Shown in pieces: positions 12,606-25,205 of a stretch of DNA of 64,000 nucleotides. Below the pieces are notes generated by a model, which saw nothing but the letters and a program-made list of their open reading frames with translations, did no database searches and was not told where the DNA came from. A program made the position numbers and the translations under genes. Location of the stretch: assembly GCA_040218535.1 (NCBI GenBank), contig JAVJRG010000012.1:620001-684000 (forward strand), read 5' to 3'. Every line of letters starts with the position of its first letter. Position 1 is the first letter of the stretch. Origin of the DNA: Lacipirellulaceae bacterium (GTDB taxonomy: Bacteria > Planctomycetota > Planctomycetia > Pirellulales > Lacipirellulaceae).

Positions 12606-12715
12606 CTGGTTGCTCTTGCTTCGATTCACTTCGAATATTCTTGACATACAAAATAGCTGTGAGTATACATGCGTTCACATTTGCTCTTTGCTCATCCTCA
12701 CTGGAAACGCTTCTG

Positions 12716-13255
12716 ATGAACCTGCACTGGCTCCTCACTTGGACCACTCACGGGACTTGGCTTCCTGGTGACCAGCGTGGTTTCGTGGGGAATGCCGTCG
12801 ATGGCCACGGAGTGCGGCGCTCGAACAACCACTACGGAGTTCCCTGCGACCGCGACTTGCCCAAGCTTCATCGCGCGATTCAATCGAGTTTGAAGGAGAA
12901 GCCCGTGTGGCTGAAACGCGAGCAAGCCACCCGGCTACTCCAGCAATTTCAAGAGACGGCTACCTATCGAGGGTGGCAGCTCGCTGCGGTGGCTGTCATG
13001 GCTAATCACGTGCATTTGATTGTAGGCGTTGCCGAAGCGATCGACCCGGAAAAACTGCTTGGGGACTTCAAAGCTTATGGGAGCCGAATATTGAACCGCT
13101 CTTGGGGGAAACGCGACTGGTGGACGCGGTCGGGCTCGAAGCGGAGAAAAAGCGACGCACGCGCTGTGGCAACAGCAGTGCGCTATGTTGCGCGTCAAGA
13201 GCGACCACTGGCCTTGTGGATCGCACCCGAGTGGCGAGAGGAGTTGGGGCTTTGA
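12716..13255 (+). CDS. REP-associated tyrosine transposase (RAYT, IS200/IS605-like Y1)
   Basis: A 179-residue single-stranded-DNA transposase domain of the Y1 HUH class. The HUH motif is H98-V-H100 within VMANHVHLIVGV, and the likely catalytic tyrosine is Y121 in DFKAYGSRILNR. RAYT proteins recognise and are thought to spread REP palindromes. Flanking BIME-like pairs on both sides, and a single unit near tuf, fit that role. I chose the internal ATG (MNLHWLLTWTTHGTWLPGD) because it matches how the family starts; the frame is open 25 codons further upstream. The gene looks intact. Confidence 0.9.
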   Translation: MNLHWLLTWTTHGTWLPGDQRGFVGNAVDGHGVRRSNNHYGVPCDRDLPKLHRAIQSSLKEKPVWLKREQATRLLQQFQETATYRGWQLAAVAVMANHVHLIVGVAEAIDPEKLLGDFKAYGSRILNRSWGKRDWWTRSGSKRRKSDARAVATAVRYVARQERPLALWIAPEWREELGL

Positions 13256-13371: not shown

Positions 13372-13959
13372 TCAGTCGCTCAGGGCTTCTTGGGCGGTGA
13401 TGATCGCGTTGGCGATATCGACCAGTTTCCGCCGTTTTTCGCTTGCTAGCTTCTGCAGGCGGCGGAAGGCATCCCCCTCGTCGAGTTGGCTTTGGCTCAT
13501 AAGGATGCCTTTGGCTCGCTCGATAATTTTACGGTCCGCAAGGGCTTGCCGTAGGTCCTGAACTTCTTCATGGAGAGCTTCGAATTGCTCAAATCGCCTT
13601 AATACCAAGTAGATGGTCGGCTGGATATGCTCACTCTCGATCGGCTCAAGGAGATAAGCCATAACGTGATCTTGCAGAGCCCGTTCGACATCGTGGAGCG
13701 AATCGTTATCAGTAACCACGATGGCGGGGATTGGGTCTTCCTTGCTAACCTCGATTAGCACGCTTACGGCGTCGCCGTCGGGCATGTCCACGCCGCTGAT
13801 GATTAGCTCAGGTCGCTCGCGTTGGCACTGCTCAGTGATCCCACCGCAGGTCTCAACGGTTGCTTGGATCTCGTAGTCGAGACTCTTGATCGCATCAACA
13901 AGCGTCTTTCGAACAAGCGCATCGTGATGCGCGATCAGAATCTTAATTGCTTCGGCCAT
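13372..13959 (-). CDS. ANTAR-domain regulator with a degenerate receiver domain
   Basis: A 195-residue protein: receiver-like fold (about 5-120), coiled-coil linker, and an ANTAR RNA-binding domain (about 135-190). The latter has the signature ERAKGILMSQ, then DAFRRLQKLA and KLVDIANAI. ANTAR proteins act by transcription antitermination, binding paired hairpins in leader RNAs. The receiver lacks the usual chemistry: the acidic pair is H11-H12, the phospho-acceptor position is G56 (SGVDMP), and the K-P pair is E105-P106. It is therefore probably not phosphorylated and may respond to a partner, as AmiR does. It is divergent from a promoter feeding a long structured leader (14174-14536), a plausible target. 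Confidence 0.88.
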   Translation of the reverse strand: MAEAIKILIAHHDALVRKTLVDAIKSLDYEIQATVETCGGITEQCQRERPELIISGVDMPDGDAVSVLIEVSKEDPIPAIVVTDNDSLHDVERALQDHVMAYLLEPIESEHIQPTIYLVLRRFEQFEALHEEVQDLRQALADRKIIERAKGILMSQSQLDEGDAFRRLQKLASEKRRKLVDIANAIITAQEALSD

Positions 13960-15117: not shown

Positions 15118-16434
15118 TCAAGAGCCGGCATTCTCAGTTTGCGACTCGAACGCCGCGTGTGACTTCAGCGTCTCCACGAGGATTTGCTGAATCGATTGGC
15201 GATCCTTTGAACTGAGGTGCGCGAAGGCTTCCGACTGATCTTCGCCACTGAGGATCTCGTGAAGTCGCTGATCGACGATGGTTCGGATTGATTCCGGCAG
15301 TGCCGCGAACGAGTCGGAATAGATCAGATAGCTGCACGGATACTTGAAAAGACGCGTCTTTAAGTCGAACTCTCGTAGCGTACGGCCCTGAGCGTCCCGC
15401 GGGCCGAGCTTCTCGAACTGCTCGGCAAAATCGCTCGTCCCCGCCACGGGCGACTCGAGCTGGTATTCGCTGGAGAACAGCAGACACTCGACGAGCTCTT
15501 CCGCTGCTTTGCGAAGCCTTCTCTGTGAAACGTCATGCACATGATCCGCTGGCTTCTCCAGGATTTTATTCCAAATGGCATCATAGTGAGCCGCCTGCCG
15601 TGCTTCGTAAGAGGCCCGCGTGATCGCGTTGTGCATCTGCGACTGATGTTCAAGGACCATCAGGGCCACGACATCGCTGTGCGGCGTGAGATAGGCCCGT
15701 GTGCTCACTCGCTTTTTCAGCGAGAGGAGATTCGAATTCTTCTGAGTGTCGATTTCGCCCTCTTCATCAAGCAGCGTTGCGTTGCCGCGGTGCCTCATCT
15801 GACCGTGCTCGCCAGTGACGTACCAGCCGCCGAAACGCTTCTCCAGCGGCGTCGTCGCATCCGTGGTATCCGAACCAAGAGACAACAAAGGATGGCCCCG
15901 GCGATCGGGAAAAACGCTGCGAACCAGATAGCCCGGGACATCCCGCGTGCGGTCGCCATGATGGCAAGCGAGGCACGCCCCCGTGTCGCGGATGAATTTG
16001 GGGCGTTCGGTTTCTCGCTGCTCGAGCGAGTAAAAGATTGCCCCCTGCACCGGATCAACGGCTGAAACTTCCAGGATATCGCCCCGCTGCACGTAGCCCA
16101 CGTAAGCGTCGTCGTTGTAATAGAGCGCTCGGGGTGTCTGCGGCGAGATCTCATGCACCTGCAGGCTGGTCTTGGAGAACACCAATAGCTGCGAGTGCTG
16201 AGAAATGCCTAGTTCTTCGAGTACTGAAGGTAACCAGCCCCGCCGCTTATCCCATTGGAGCTTCACCTCACCAGCGTCGAGTCTCGCTTGCAACTGAGCG
16301 ACCGAATCGTTGACTTTCGCAGTGCTGTAGTGGATGGGTGCTTGGTCAATATCGTCATTGGCACCAACGACCGGACACCGCGCACAACAGAGCAGCAGAA
16401 AAACGCACAACAGAGACTTGAAGCCGTTAGGCAT
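15118..16434 (-). CDS. Exported c-type cytochrome-like protein, single haem motif
   Basis: A 438-residue protein with an N-terminal hydrophobic export signal (SLLCVFLLLCCARC; a lipoprotein cysteine is possible). It has one CxxCH haem-attachment motif, C154-L-A-C157-H158, in the block FIRDTGACLACHHG. A sequence around FPDRRGHPLLSLGS follows. The rest is mostly polar and helical. It should act in the periplasm as an electron carrier or haem sensor; I do not recognise a precise family. It starts 2 bp after the protoglobin gene ends, so the two form one operon facing the Rrf2 regulator. Confidence 0.75.
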   Translation of the reverse strand: MPNGFKSLLCVFLLLCCARCPVVGANDDIDQAPIHYSTAKVNDSVAQLQARLDAGEVKLQWDKRRGWLPSVLEELGISQHSQLLVFSKTSLQVHEISPQTPRALYYNDDAYVGYVQRGDILEVSAVDPVQGAIFYSLEQRETERPKFIRDTGACLACHHGDRTRDVPGYLVRSVFPDRRGHPLLSLGSDTTDATTPLEKRFGGWYVTGEHGQMRHRGNATLLDEEGEIDTQKNSNLLSLKKRVSTRAYLTPHSDVVALMVLEHQSQMHNAITRASYEARQAAHYDAIWNKILEKPADHVHDVSQRRLRKAAEELVECLLFSSEYQLESPVAGTSDFAEQFEKLGPRDAQGRTLREFDLKTRLFKYPCSYLIYSDSFAALPESIRTIVDQRLHEILSGEDQSEAFAHLSSKDRQSIQQILVETLKSHAAFESQTENAGS

Positions 16435-16436
16435 TT

Positions 16437-17018
16437 CTAGGTCGTCGAGTTGAGATAGTGACGGTTGATCAAATCATTTTGAAGCCAAAGCAGCTTGCTT
16501 ACCGCCCGTAAGGTCTTCACTTCGGTATCGCGGTCAAGATTCAAGCCAAGGATGGTGGCATTCAAGGCGTCGGCAACGAACCCCATCAGTGCGTTCATCT
16601 GCACCAATGGGACGTTGATCTTCGTGCTTCCCTGCCCTGGCGTGTGCATGGCGCCAACCCGGTCGAGGTACTCAACCATACTCCCGTCGTAAGGCTTCGT
16701 GACCAAGTTGACCAAATAACGACCGAGGTGTTGCTTGCGGAACTCGATCGTCGCGGCATCCATCGCCAAATTCTCAACAGAGCTGGCTGTCTCTCCTTCG
16801 AATCCATGTTGCCTCGGGACGAAATGCCGCCAGGTGGCATCCTGCTGAAACAGCTTATCGTAAACTGCGTCGACGAGCCCAGGCACCAATGGAGCCAGCG
16901 CCTGGGCTGCCCCGTGCAAGGCAGAGATGTCGTCTTCACCAAAGCCGATGAAGCCGGCTAGATACTCAAAACGGTACCCAAGGTCCAATTCGAGTCTGGG
17001 CTCGTCAATCTTTTGCAT
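16437..17018 (-). CDS. Protoglobin-domain protein (single-domain haem sensor-like globin)
   Basis: A 193-residue cytoplasmic protein of the protoglobin / globin-sensor type without an attached signalling domain. The likely proximal histidine is H125 in the segment RVGAMHTPG, at the place where globin-coupled sensors have their conserved G-x-x-H. The N-terminal part (YRFEYLAGFIGF) resembles the family's pre-A segment. Such globins bind O2, CO or NO. It heads a two-gene operon with a cytochrome c and is divergent from an NsrR-like regulator, so a role in NO or O2 response is a reasonable inference. The start is uncertain: ATG codons at 17018 and 17027 are both possible. Confidence 0.82.
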   Translation of the reverse strand: MQKIDEPRLELDLGYRFEYLAGFIGFGEDDISALHGAAQALAPLVPGLVDAVYDKLFQQDATWRHFVPRQHGFEGETASSVENLAMDAATIEFRKQHLGRYLVNLVTKPYDGSMVEYLDRVGAMHTPGQGSTKINVPLVQMNALMGFVADALNATILGLNLDRDTEVKTLRAVSKLLWLQNDLINRHYLNSTT

Positions 17019-17084
17019 GGAAATCATCCGAGAAATCAAGGGATTTGCGAGGGACTGGCTCGCCAGAACGTGCCTTGCGAACTA

Positions 17085-17106
17085 AATTGGATGAGATCAT
17101 CCAATT
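17085..17106. promoter_or_regulatory. Palindromic operator 1 (Rrf2-type)
   Basis: A perfect inverted repeat: AATTGGATGA, two bases, TCATCCAATT. It shares its core TTGGATG/CATCCAA with operator 2, whose centre is 45 bp away. It lies in the divergent region between the protoglobin and Rrf2 genes, nearer the protoglobin side. Confidence 0.8.
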
Positions 17107-17126
17107 AACCCCAAATCTAGTCTCGG

Positions 17127-17154
17127 CTGAATTGGATGTCAACATCCAATTCAG
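17127..17154. promoter_or_regulatory. Palindromic operator 2 (Rrf2-type)
   Basis: A perfect 28-bp inverted repeat with 13-base arms (CTGAATTGGATGT and its complement) around a two-base centre. It ends 23 bp before the Rrf2 start codon, suitable for autorepression. Confidence 0.82.
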
Positions 17155-17177
17155 TCTGCTCTTCGACGAGTCTGAAC

Positions 17178-17639
17178 ATGCTTTCCCAATCGGTCGAGTA
17201 TGCCCTCCGGGCAATGGTCCATCTGGCAGCGGAAACTCCTGCCAGTTGCACGACCGCGGAGCTGGCAAAAGTCACTCAAGTGCCTGCTGCCTACCTAGCG
17301 AAGATCATCCAGGGGCTTTCGAAAGCTGGCTTGGTGAAGTCACAACGCGGGGCAGGCGGTGGTGTCGCGTTGATCGGATCACCAGAAACAGTCACCATCC
17401 TCGACGTGGTCAACGCGGTCGATCCTCTGCAGCGCATTCACACCTGCCCGCTCGACTTGAAAACCCACGGCACGCGACTCTGCCCATTACACCGACGGCT
17501 CGACAATGCCATGGCTGAGGTCGAACGTGCCTTCGCCAATACATCGCTCGCCGAGGTACTGGCGGACCCAAGTCAATCGAAGCCGTTGTGCGACGGAGAA
17601 GAGCAAGTCATTGGGTTGACGGATACTCCCCTGCGTTGA
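17178..17639 (+). CDS. Rrf2-family transcriptional regulator, NsrR-like
   Basis: A 153-residue winged-helix regulator. The start MLSQSVEYALRAMVHLA and the recognition region VPAAYLAKIIQGLSKAGLVKSQRGAGGG are typical of Rrf2 proteins. C90 and C102 fall at the positions of C91 and C102 of E. coli NsrR, which hold the NO-sensitive iron-sulfur cluster. The middle cysteine (C96) is absent, with T96 and H97 there instead. A two-cysteine cluster or a different ligand is therefore likely. Two matching palindromes in the divergent region are its probable operators, controlling itself and the protoglobin-cytochrome operon. The ligand (NO, O2 or redox) cannot be settled from sequence. Confidence 0.88.
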   Translation: MLSQSVEYALRAMVHLAAETPASCTTAELAKVTQVPAAYLAKIIQGLSKAGLVKSQRGAGGGVALIGSPETVTILDVVNAVDPLQRIHTCPLDLKTHGTRLCPLHRRLDNAMAEVERAFANTSLAEVLADPSQSKPLCDGEEQVIGLTDTPLR

Positions 17640-25094: not shown

Positions 25095-25205
25095 TGTCAT
25101 TCCGACAGTCGTCTCAGCGACGGAGGAATCCGGTTTGCGCTGTTGTTGACTCAACATTTCTTCAAACCGGATTCCTCGGTCGGCGAGCCTCCCGTCGGAA
25201 TGACA
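25095..25205. repeat. Long dispersed palindrome (CATTCCGAC type), copy 1
   Basis: The outer ends TGTCATTCCGAC and GTCGGAATGACA are complementary, and inner arms GGAGGAATCCGG and CCGGATTCCTC pair as well. The loop is about 30 bases. A second copy lies at 36894-37012 with nearly the same arms and a different centre. It sits between rpsG and fusA, downstream of the terminator. Confidence 0.85.

Follow-up and report, generated by a model that had tools for sequence, protein, structure and literature searches.

Known systems and the present locus

The closest described counterparts of the locus analyzed here include units governed by Rrf2-family regulators. The locus lies in a 64,000-nucleotide stretch of the genome of a Lacipirellulaceae bacterium (contig JAVJRG010000012.1, positions 620,001 to 684,000; hereafter the window), where an Rrf2-type regulator gene (rrf2) diverges from a single-domain protoglobin gene (pgb) that is followed by a c-type cytochrome gene (cyt), and two matching palindromes, the putative operators O1 and O2, occupy the space between them. 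NsrR, a nitric oxide (NO) sensor with a [4Fe-4S] cluster, shares with the present regulator the Rrf2 fold, a Glu/Asp-Arg pair in helix 1 and two correctly spaced cysteines of the three that bind the cluster, and in some genomes the operator found here also precedes NO reductase and globin genes. However, the present protein has a C-x6-H-x4-C-x2-H arrangement, its target is a protoglobin instead of a flavohaemoglobin, and it fails the cut-off of the NCBIfam NsrR model. RsrR of Streptomyces venezuelae, a [2Fe-2S] protein whose His ligand is not kept in our regulator, is its best solved match and likewise has two inverted-repeat operators between its gene and a divergent repressed target (PMC5015018). 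The RsrR sites differ in their 11-3-11 architecture, and the class 1 targets given in the available text of that report belong to NAD(P)H and glutamate metabolism.

The GlbN-ferredoxin reductase operon of Legionella pneumophila is also under an Rrf2-type NO regulator, NsrR, and also joins a globin to a redox gene (PMC3820574, available text), but there the globin is truncated and the partner is a ferredoxin reductase, whereas here a protoglobin stands with a probably exported cytochrome. A protoglobin locus tag next to nitrosocyanin is listed for Nitrosococcus oceani, with NsrR elsewhere in the same table, but the accessible portion of that source gives no Rrf2 adjacency and no operator (PMC3772326). 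The protoglobin of Methanosarcina acetivorans is single-domain like ours and has been studied in vitro (PMC3680402), but it is archaeal, and the accessible portions of two reports call its biological role unknown (PMC3680402, PMC4020757). The first-pass annotation of the window knew of no described system with this gene pair, and the literature that we searched, which included few subscription papers and some sources in part only, likewise held no report linking a protoglobin with Rrf2, or a globin with Rrf2 in planctomycetes; in the portions consulted of papers that mention NsrR with protoglobin, or Rrf2 with planctomycetes, control of a protoglobin is not described.

Twin operators in the intergenic region

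The pgb gene (16437..17018, - strand) encodes a protein of 193 residues with a PF11563 match (1.4e-37). Only 2 bp separate it from cyt (15118..16434, - strand), which encodes a probably exported monohaem c-type protein of 438 residues with CLACH at residues 154-158. On the other side, rrf2 (17178..17639, + strand; PF02082, 4.6e-30) probably encodes 153 residues. The likely starts are ATG 17018 for the globin and ATG 17178 for the regulator; an alternative ATG exists at 17136, and relatives begin at the equivalent of 17178. With these starts, both palindromes fall inside a 159-bp intergenic region. Coordinates and Pfam matches thus agree with the layout first proposed, in which globin and cytochrome face one way and the regulator faces the other.

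Both palindromes are perfect, and neither is assigned a strand. O1 (17127..17154) has 13-nt arms (17127-17139 and 17142-17154) and O2 (17085..17106) has 10-nt arms (17085-17094 and 17097-17106), each with a 2-nt spacer. Their centres, 17140.5 and 17095.5, are 45 bp apart, and they have the core TTGGATG-N4-CATCCAA in common; positions, perfection and spacing were all reproduced on the sequence as first described. The O1 arms are one of nine short-range repeats of at least 12 nt listed in the 64 kb, and palindromes this long are not unique there; the distinctive point is that two alike stand side by side. Allowing up to two mismatches, TTGGATGN4CATCCAA has two matches in the window, both perfect, where 0.25 would be expected from shuffles, and two or more matches occurred in 4 of 100 shuffles. 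Across the whole 5,355,217-base genome, the pattern TTGGATGN(2-10)CATCCAA finds O1 and O2 only (control, 0), and the 22-bp consensus of the family finds two sites at zero mismatches, with none listed at one. No wide regulon was found in this genome: sites with two to three mismatches are numerous, and the reversed control also gives many (173 versus 102 per strand).

Conservation among protoglobin loci

Relatives of the protoglobin were collected from 59 related genomes, 18 of which (our own included) have a match, and from a species-level collection in which the best 80 of 120 were kept, so the set leans to close relatives. Four of the 98 loci were dropped as duplicates (L026, L033, L034 and L045), leaving 94, and counting the identical L004 and L024, both without a divergent Rrf2 gene, as one leaves 93. 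An Rrf2 gene diverges from the globin gene in 71 of these 93 loci, and a cytochrome gene lies downstream on the same strand as the globin in 17, our own locus being included in both counts. The rrf2-globin pair is the minimal conserved unit. Among the 22 loci that lack a divergent Rrf2 gene, four have a site of at least 15 bits.

A symmetric operator matrix built from one half of the intergenic regions was scored on the half left out, with dinucleotide shuffles as the control; our own locus, which had seeded the matrix, was excluded, leaving 70 divergent rrf2-globin regions. In this cross-validation, 67 of the 70 regions (all except L023, L030 and L077) carry an operator that scores above 7.6 bits, the 99th percentile of the shuffles. 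It reaches at least 12 bits in 65 and at least 15 bits in 59, and the top shuffle scored 16.7. The consensus across relatives is AAYTGGAY-N6-RTCCARTT. Two sites of at least 12 bits are present in 34 loci, and they are 41-48 bp apart in 33 of these. The palindromes are therefore kept in orthologous loci, and conservation together with spacing supports the original idea of a small Rrf2-controlled unit with palindromic operators. This bears out the observation, which proves stronger than the first reading could know. The cytochrome is adjacent to the globin in only the 17 loci noted above.

Promoter geometry

A predicted sigma-70 promoter for the globin-cytochrome pair (17114..17142, - strand) consists of TTGACA (17142-17137), a 17-bp spacer and TAGATT (17119-17114). 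This matches the sigma-70 promoter at 10 of 12 bases, where shuffles give an expectation of 0.2. Of the 70 relatives, 55 have a site whose central TTG reads towards the globin, and these plus the window form a promoter alignment of 56 rows. The TTG of these rows is uninformative by itself because the rows were chosen for it. The bases that follow are A (93%), C (84%) and A (80%), the GA and TC of the operator are invariant, and a weakly conserved TA..TT box (50-62% per base) appears 20-26 bp downstream of the O1 centre. Conservation beside the sites is near zero, with at most 0.22 bits at positions 12-19 and 27-32.

The predicted -35 box of the globin promoter thus falls inside O1, whose distance upstream of the probable rrf2 start is 24-51 bp. 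O2 begins at about the predicted start of globin transcription and should cover it. With O1 on the -35 box and near the rrf2 start, and O2 on the transcription start, the arrangement has the geometry of a self-controlling repressor. We consider it very probable that regulatory control is exerted through O1 and O2.

Operator sites at unlinked cytochrome genes

Of the 146 genomes of the order, 65 encode a member of the cytochrome family. Among 37 cytochrome loci that are not beside a globin gene, eight have a site of at least 15 bits within 300 bp upstream, seven of them at 18.0 bits or more; background loci totalling 911,083 positions contain two sites at the lower threshold and none at the higher. 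All eight are in genomes with a close Rrf2 protein (8 of 16, versus 0 of 21 without one; p = 0.0003), and the association holds by genus (4 of 9 versus 0 of 20; p = 0.005). Two genera contribute three of the eight genomes each, and the line between close and distant Rrf2 proteins, 225 bits, was drawn after the scores were known, in a gap from 211.6 to 228. Because every trans site is in a genome with a close Rrf2, in several lineages the same regulator appears to control the cytochrome.

The remaining 29 unlinked loci have no 15-bit site within 300 bp, eight of them in genomes with a close Rrf2; two of these eight (G117 and G038) do have a site beyond that distance, upstream of a local rrf2 gene. 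In G117, a second Rrf2 gene and the cytochrome gene after it share a strand, twin operators spaced 45 bp lie upstream of both, and the unit diverges from a Tll0287-like gene. In G032 (locus L020), the protoglobin gene is apparently broken, with an internal stop and a partial match, and the operators of the Rrf2 gene and of the distant cytochrome gene are kept, as is the Rrf2 gene.

Other genes preceded by the operator

The site pattern was found in 24 of 30 genomes searched, compared with 5 for the reversed control, and ten places away from globin and cytochrome genes were inspected. Twin sites spaced 48 bp lie upstream of a small CxxCH gene in three genomes (L311-L313); Pfam identifies the L312 gene as Tll0287-like, and a mutual identity of 80-84% extends this to L311 and L313. 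A fourth genome (L317) has two tandem Tll0287-like genes, one recognized by Pfam and one by eye, behind sites 41 bp apart. Tll0287 domains carry c haem, and when fused to signalling modules they are reported as NO sensors in the available text of a preprint (PMC12889525). Genome G146 encodes a close Rrf2 and has no protoglobin match; a 24.4-bit site there lies upstream of an unrelated globin gene (PF00042, 23.3 bits, cut-off 22) followed by a gene for the NO reductase qNOR (PF22085, 2.6e-68), and a dihaem EB_dh cytochrome gene is on the opposite side. In G004, a 19.0-bit site is upstream of genes for a dihaem cytochrome and a cbb3-like oxidase subunit.

A search for qNOR in 35 genomes gave matches in 15, and 13 usable loci remained after the fragments G206 and G227 were excluded; two of these (L343 and L348) have less than 250 bp upstream of qNOR on the contig. 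An operator of at least 15 bits lies upstream of the qNOR operon in three of the 13 (G117, G146 and G004). In G117, twin operators (26.5 and 16.9 bits) precede a protoglobin-qNOR pair, whose two genes are about 44 bp apart on the same strand, and face the Rrf2 gene. The G004 site (17.9 bits) is upstream of a gene and then qNOR, and its TTGAC faces the other way. Operators before a protoglobin-qNOR operon in G117 and before another globin and then qNOR in G146 favour an NO-responsive regulon, and they lend weight to the link with NO that was drawn from the window alone. NO is the best reading of this set of targets, and we regard it as fairly probable that NO is the signal; a redox signal is the main rival.

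Several further sites are recorded in their own right. At L318 and L319 (G004 and G017), an Rrf2 paralogue has its own related site scoring about 18 bits, and a c-type cytochrome gene runs divergently. A single 27.2-bit site in G146 (L314) stands by genes for a PSCyt2/PSD1 protein and an antiporter-like protein (by eye), and it fits no explanation considered here. The 17.9-bit site of L347 (G017) adjoins an Rrf2 paralogue, with qNOR some 5 kb away, and was not counted; that of L320 (11.3 bits) is chance-like. In G337 (L342), an NsrR-type gene with C-x6-C-x5-C diverges from qNOR, and the Tll0287-like CxxCH genes on both sides resemble those behind the L311-L313 and L317 sites.

The Rrf2 regulator

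The regulator scores 104.9 bits against PF02082 (cut-off 30) and 107.7 bits against TIGR00738 (cut-off 73.3), which places it in the Rrf2 superfamily. In the 167-residue numbering used here, C104, H111, C116 and H119 are invariant in 68 of 68 sequences and C152 is present in 90%; the invariant residues form C-x6-H-x4-C-x2-H instead of three cysteines. RsrR is the nearest solved relative by sequence, with NsrR and IscR lower down. The RsrR ligand set is Cys/Glu/His, including His33; by alignment, the position of this His is an invariant T47 in our family, and the Glu and two Cys are kept. In Streptomyces coelicolor NsrR, the accessible text describes a cluster on Cys93, Cys99 and Cys105 and the pair Asp8/Arg12 in helix 1 (PMC5411485). 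The spacing of the latter matches E21 (in at least 90%) and R25 (in all of 38 sequences). The first and third cysteines of NsrR are kept as C104 and C116, the middle one is absent, and the invariant H111 is one position later. Measured against Cys92, Cys98, Cys104 and His107 of IscR (PMC5411485, accessible text), the Cys98 equivalent is absent, and C104, C116 and H119 are equivalent by spacing to the other three.

The absent middle cysteine and a score of 58.9 bits against the NCBIfam NsrR model NF008240 (cut-off 182) speak against the NsrR-like assignment made at first. A structural model of the regulator is a confident monomer (predicted local distance difference test, pLDDT, 86.5) and is uninformative on a cluster. 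Knowledge of the family suggests that a cluster could be bound by the set C104, H111, C116 and H119. Since more distant Rrf2 paralogues in these genomes have the His too, the putative ligand pattern marks a larger subclass.

The globin and the cytochrome

The globin is a single-domain protoglobin (PF11563, 129.6 bits, cut-off 25). H125 is present in 91 of 91 globins, a set that still includes the identical pair L004 and L024, and weak alignments (E 0.06-1) pair it with the proximal haem His of globin-coupled sensors. No solved relative was found at E 0.1 and 0.01, and relaxed searches gave E 0.06 to 1; the M. acetivorans protoglobin family gave no significant profile match (3zjj, E 1). One locus (L056, 5001-6501) contains two protoglobin genes, whose identities to the query are 68% and 39%.

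The cytochrome has one CxxCH and no match in Pfam or NCBIfam at E up to 1. A search of 17 family members against Pfam listed two weak matches to different families, one member each (E 0.028 and 0.07), and none to PF16694, the cytochrome P460/c'-beta family. CxxCH, H215 and H263 are invariant in these 17; over 53 sequences, CxxCH and H215 are invariant and H210 and H263 are present in 98%. No solved relative was found with the sequence itself, and profile searches gave chance-like matches only (E 0.055 and up). The best Foldseek E for the structural model, whose middle is poorly predicted, was 0.17. Comparison of the fold with P460 gave a VIA Z of 3.5 over 95 residues (rank 17, with a model of moderate confidence), and hhalign gave 87%, versus 49-79% for column-shuffled decoys that keep CxxCH. 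This similarity to P460 is weak and not clear of the decoys.

An N-terminal hydrophobic stretch of the cytochrome ends in VGA (by eye), and the globin has no such signal. Because c haem is attached outside the cytoplasm (PMC12889525, preprint, available text), the hydrophobic stretch and the CxxCH together indicate that the cytochrome should be periplasmic and the globin in the other compartment. Transfer of electrons from cytochrome to globin, which the first-pass annotation had suggested, was rejected as a leading idea on these grounds and on the adjacency of the two genes in only 17 of 93 loci.

A possible NO-responsive switch and its alternatives

From the genes, the operators, their conservation, the predicted promoter overlap and the other genes behind the operator, all of which are read from the sequence, we infer repression, a cluster with its ligands, an NO signal and activities for the globin and the cytochrome. 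In the resting state, an Rrf2 dimer, probably with an iron-sulfur cluster, would occupy O1 and O2 and block RNA polymerase both at the globin promoter, with O1 on the -35 box and O2 on the start, and at its own gene. NO, or a redox change that accompanies it, would damage the cluster and release the repressor, and the protoglobin and the exported cytochrome would then be produced. The globin could remove cytoplasmic NO, either with O2 to give nitrate or by binding it, and the cytochrome would work separately in the periplasm. Taken as a whole, this autoregulated two-operator repressor switch, with NO as the signal and the globin as its remover, is on balance probable.

A number of observations weigh against this switch. 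Strong sites in the genome itself are limited to O1 and O2, and a PF22085 search of that genome found no qNOR. The globin is missing from 41 of the 59 related genomes, 22 of the 93 globin loci have no divergent Rrf2 gene (some are on short contigs), and 29 of the 37 unlinked cytochrome loci are without a nearby site, as described above. Ten of the 13 qNOR loci have no operator, and among these ten, four adjoin a MerR-type gene and one an NsrR-type gene (by eye). The regulator lacks the middle cluster Cys of NsrR and IscR, and its best solved match, RsrR, is a redox sensor. In addition, the stand-alone Tll0287-type protein that was tested bound NO not strongly, according to the available text of the preprint (PMC12889525).

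A rival is a switch of the same design in which the regulator, like RsrR, its best solved match, follows redox state or O2 through oxidation changes of a [2Fe-2S] cluster and controls haem proteins for redox or O2 metabolism. The two sites of RsrR upstream of a divergent target, the c-haem proteins and the cbb3-like oxidase cluster of G004 (the 19.0-bit site) among the operator targets, and the judgement that stand-alone Tll0287-type proteins are redox-related (PMC12889525, preprint, available text) are all consistent with it. The two different globins behind the operator, each followed by qNOR, point to NO instead. The His33 of RsrR is replaced by the invariant Thr47 in the alignment, and we regard a redox or O2 signal as rather unlikely. 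Haem proteins make up most of the genes found behind the operator, His119 occupies the position of the IscR ligand His107, and one G004 site is by a gene resembling a haem-biosynthesis oxidase (by eye), as might be expected of an IscR- or RirA-like regulator that reads iron, haem or Fe-S supply and allows haem proteins to be made when supply suffices. However, the inspected neighbours include no suf/isc or iron-uptake genes (by eye, with no dedicated search) and the genome of the window has this one strong target only, which makes a supply sensor improbable.

The globin could instead be part of the signal path, binding O2 or NO and tuning the signal to Rrf2, which would make the pair a feedback sensor and not a means of detoxification. 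The sensor-globin branch includes the protoglobins (PMC4648194, available text), and the rrf2-globin pair is the minimal conserved unit, but G146 and G079 have a close Rrf2 with no protoglobin match and the G032 protoglobin is apparently broken, with operators preceding other genes; this role for the globin seems quite improbable. That the palindromes are chance or structural (hairpin) repeats of no regulatory meaning is hardly credible: repeats of such length do recur in 64 kb, but these sites were cross-validated in 67 of 70 loci and have fixed spacing, near-zero conservation beside them and copies in trans.

If the NO-responsive switch is pressed further, the regulator might represent a new Rrf2 subclass that senses NO through an Fe-S cluster on a Cys2His2-type set, possibly with Glu21 from the partner subunit, within a planctomycete NO-defence regulon in which the protoglobin is the main cytoplasmic NO remover and a new exported monohaem family guards the periplasm. 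We put this forward as a tentative and somewhat doubtful extension. If true, protoglobins would gain a physiological role, and a new ligand chemistry would be added to those of the Rrf2 sensors. The regulator would in any case provide a naturally varied Rrf2 cluster site with which to learn how ligands set the signal (NO, redox or iron). The dedicated regulator, defined operator and co-regulated genes, with NO reductase among them in some genomes, make the role of a protoglobin testable in cultured planctomycetes.

Other features of the window

The longest repeat in a short-range scan of the window is a 43-nt inverted repeat (25095-25205; 84% complementary, 25-nt loop) just upstream of an EF-G-like gene (by eye). 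An open reading frame at 12641-13255 resembles a REP-associated transposase (by eye) and lies between a ribosomal protein cluster and a small response regulator gene (13372-13959).

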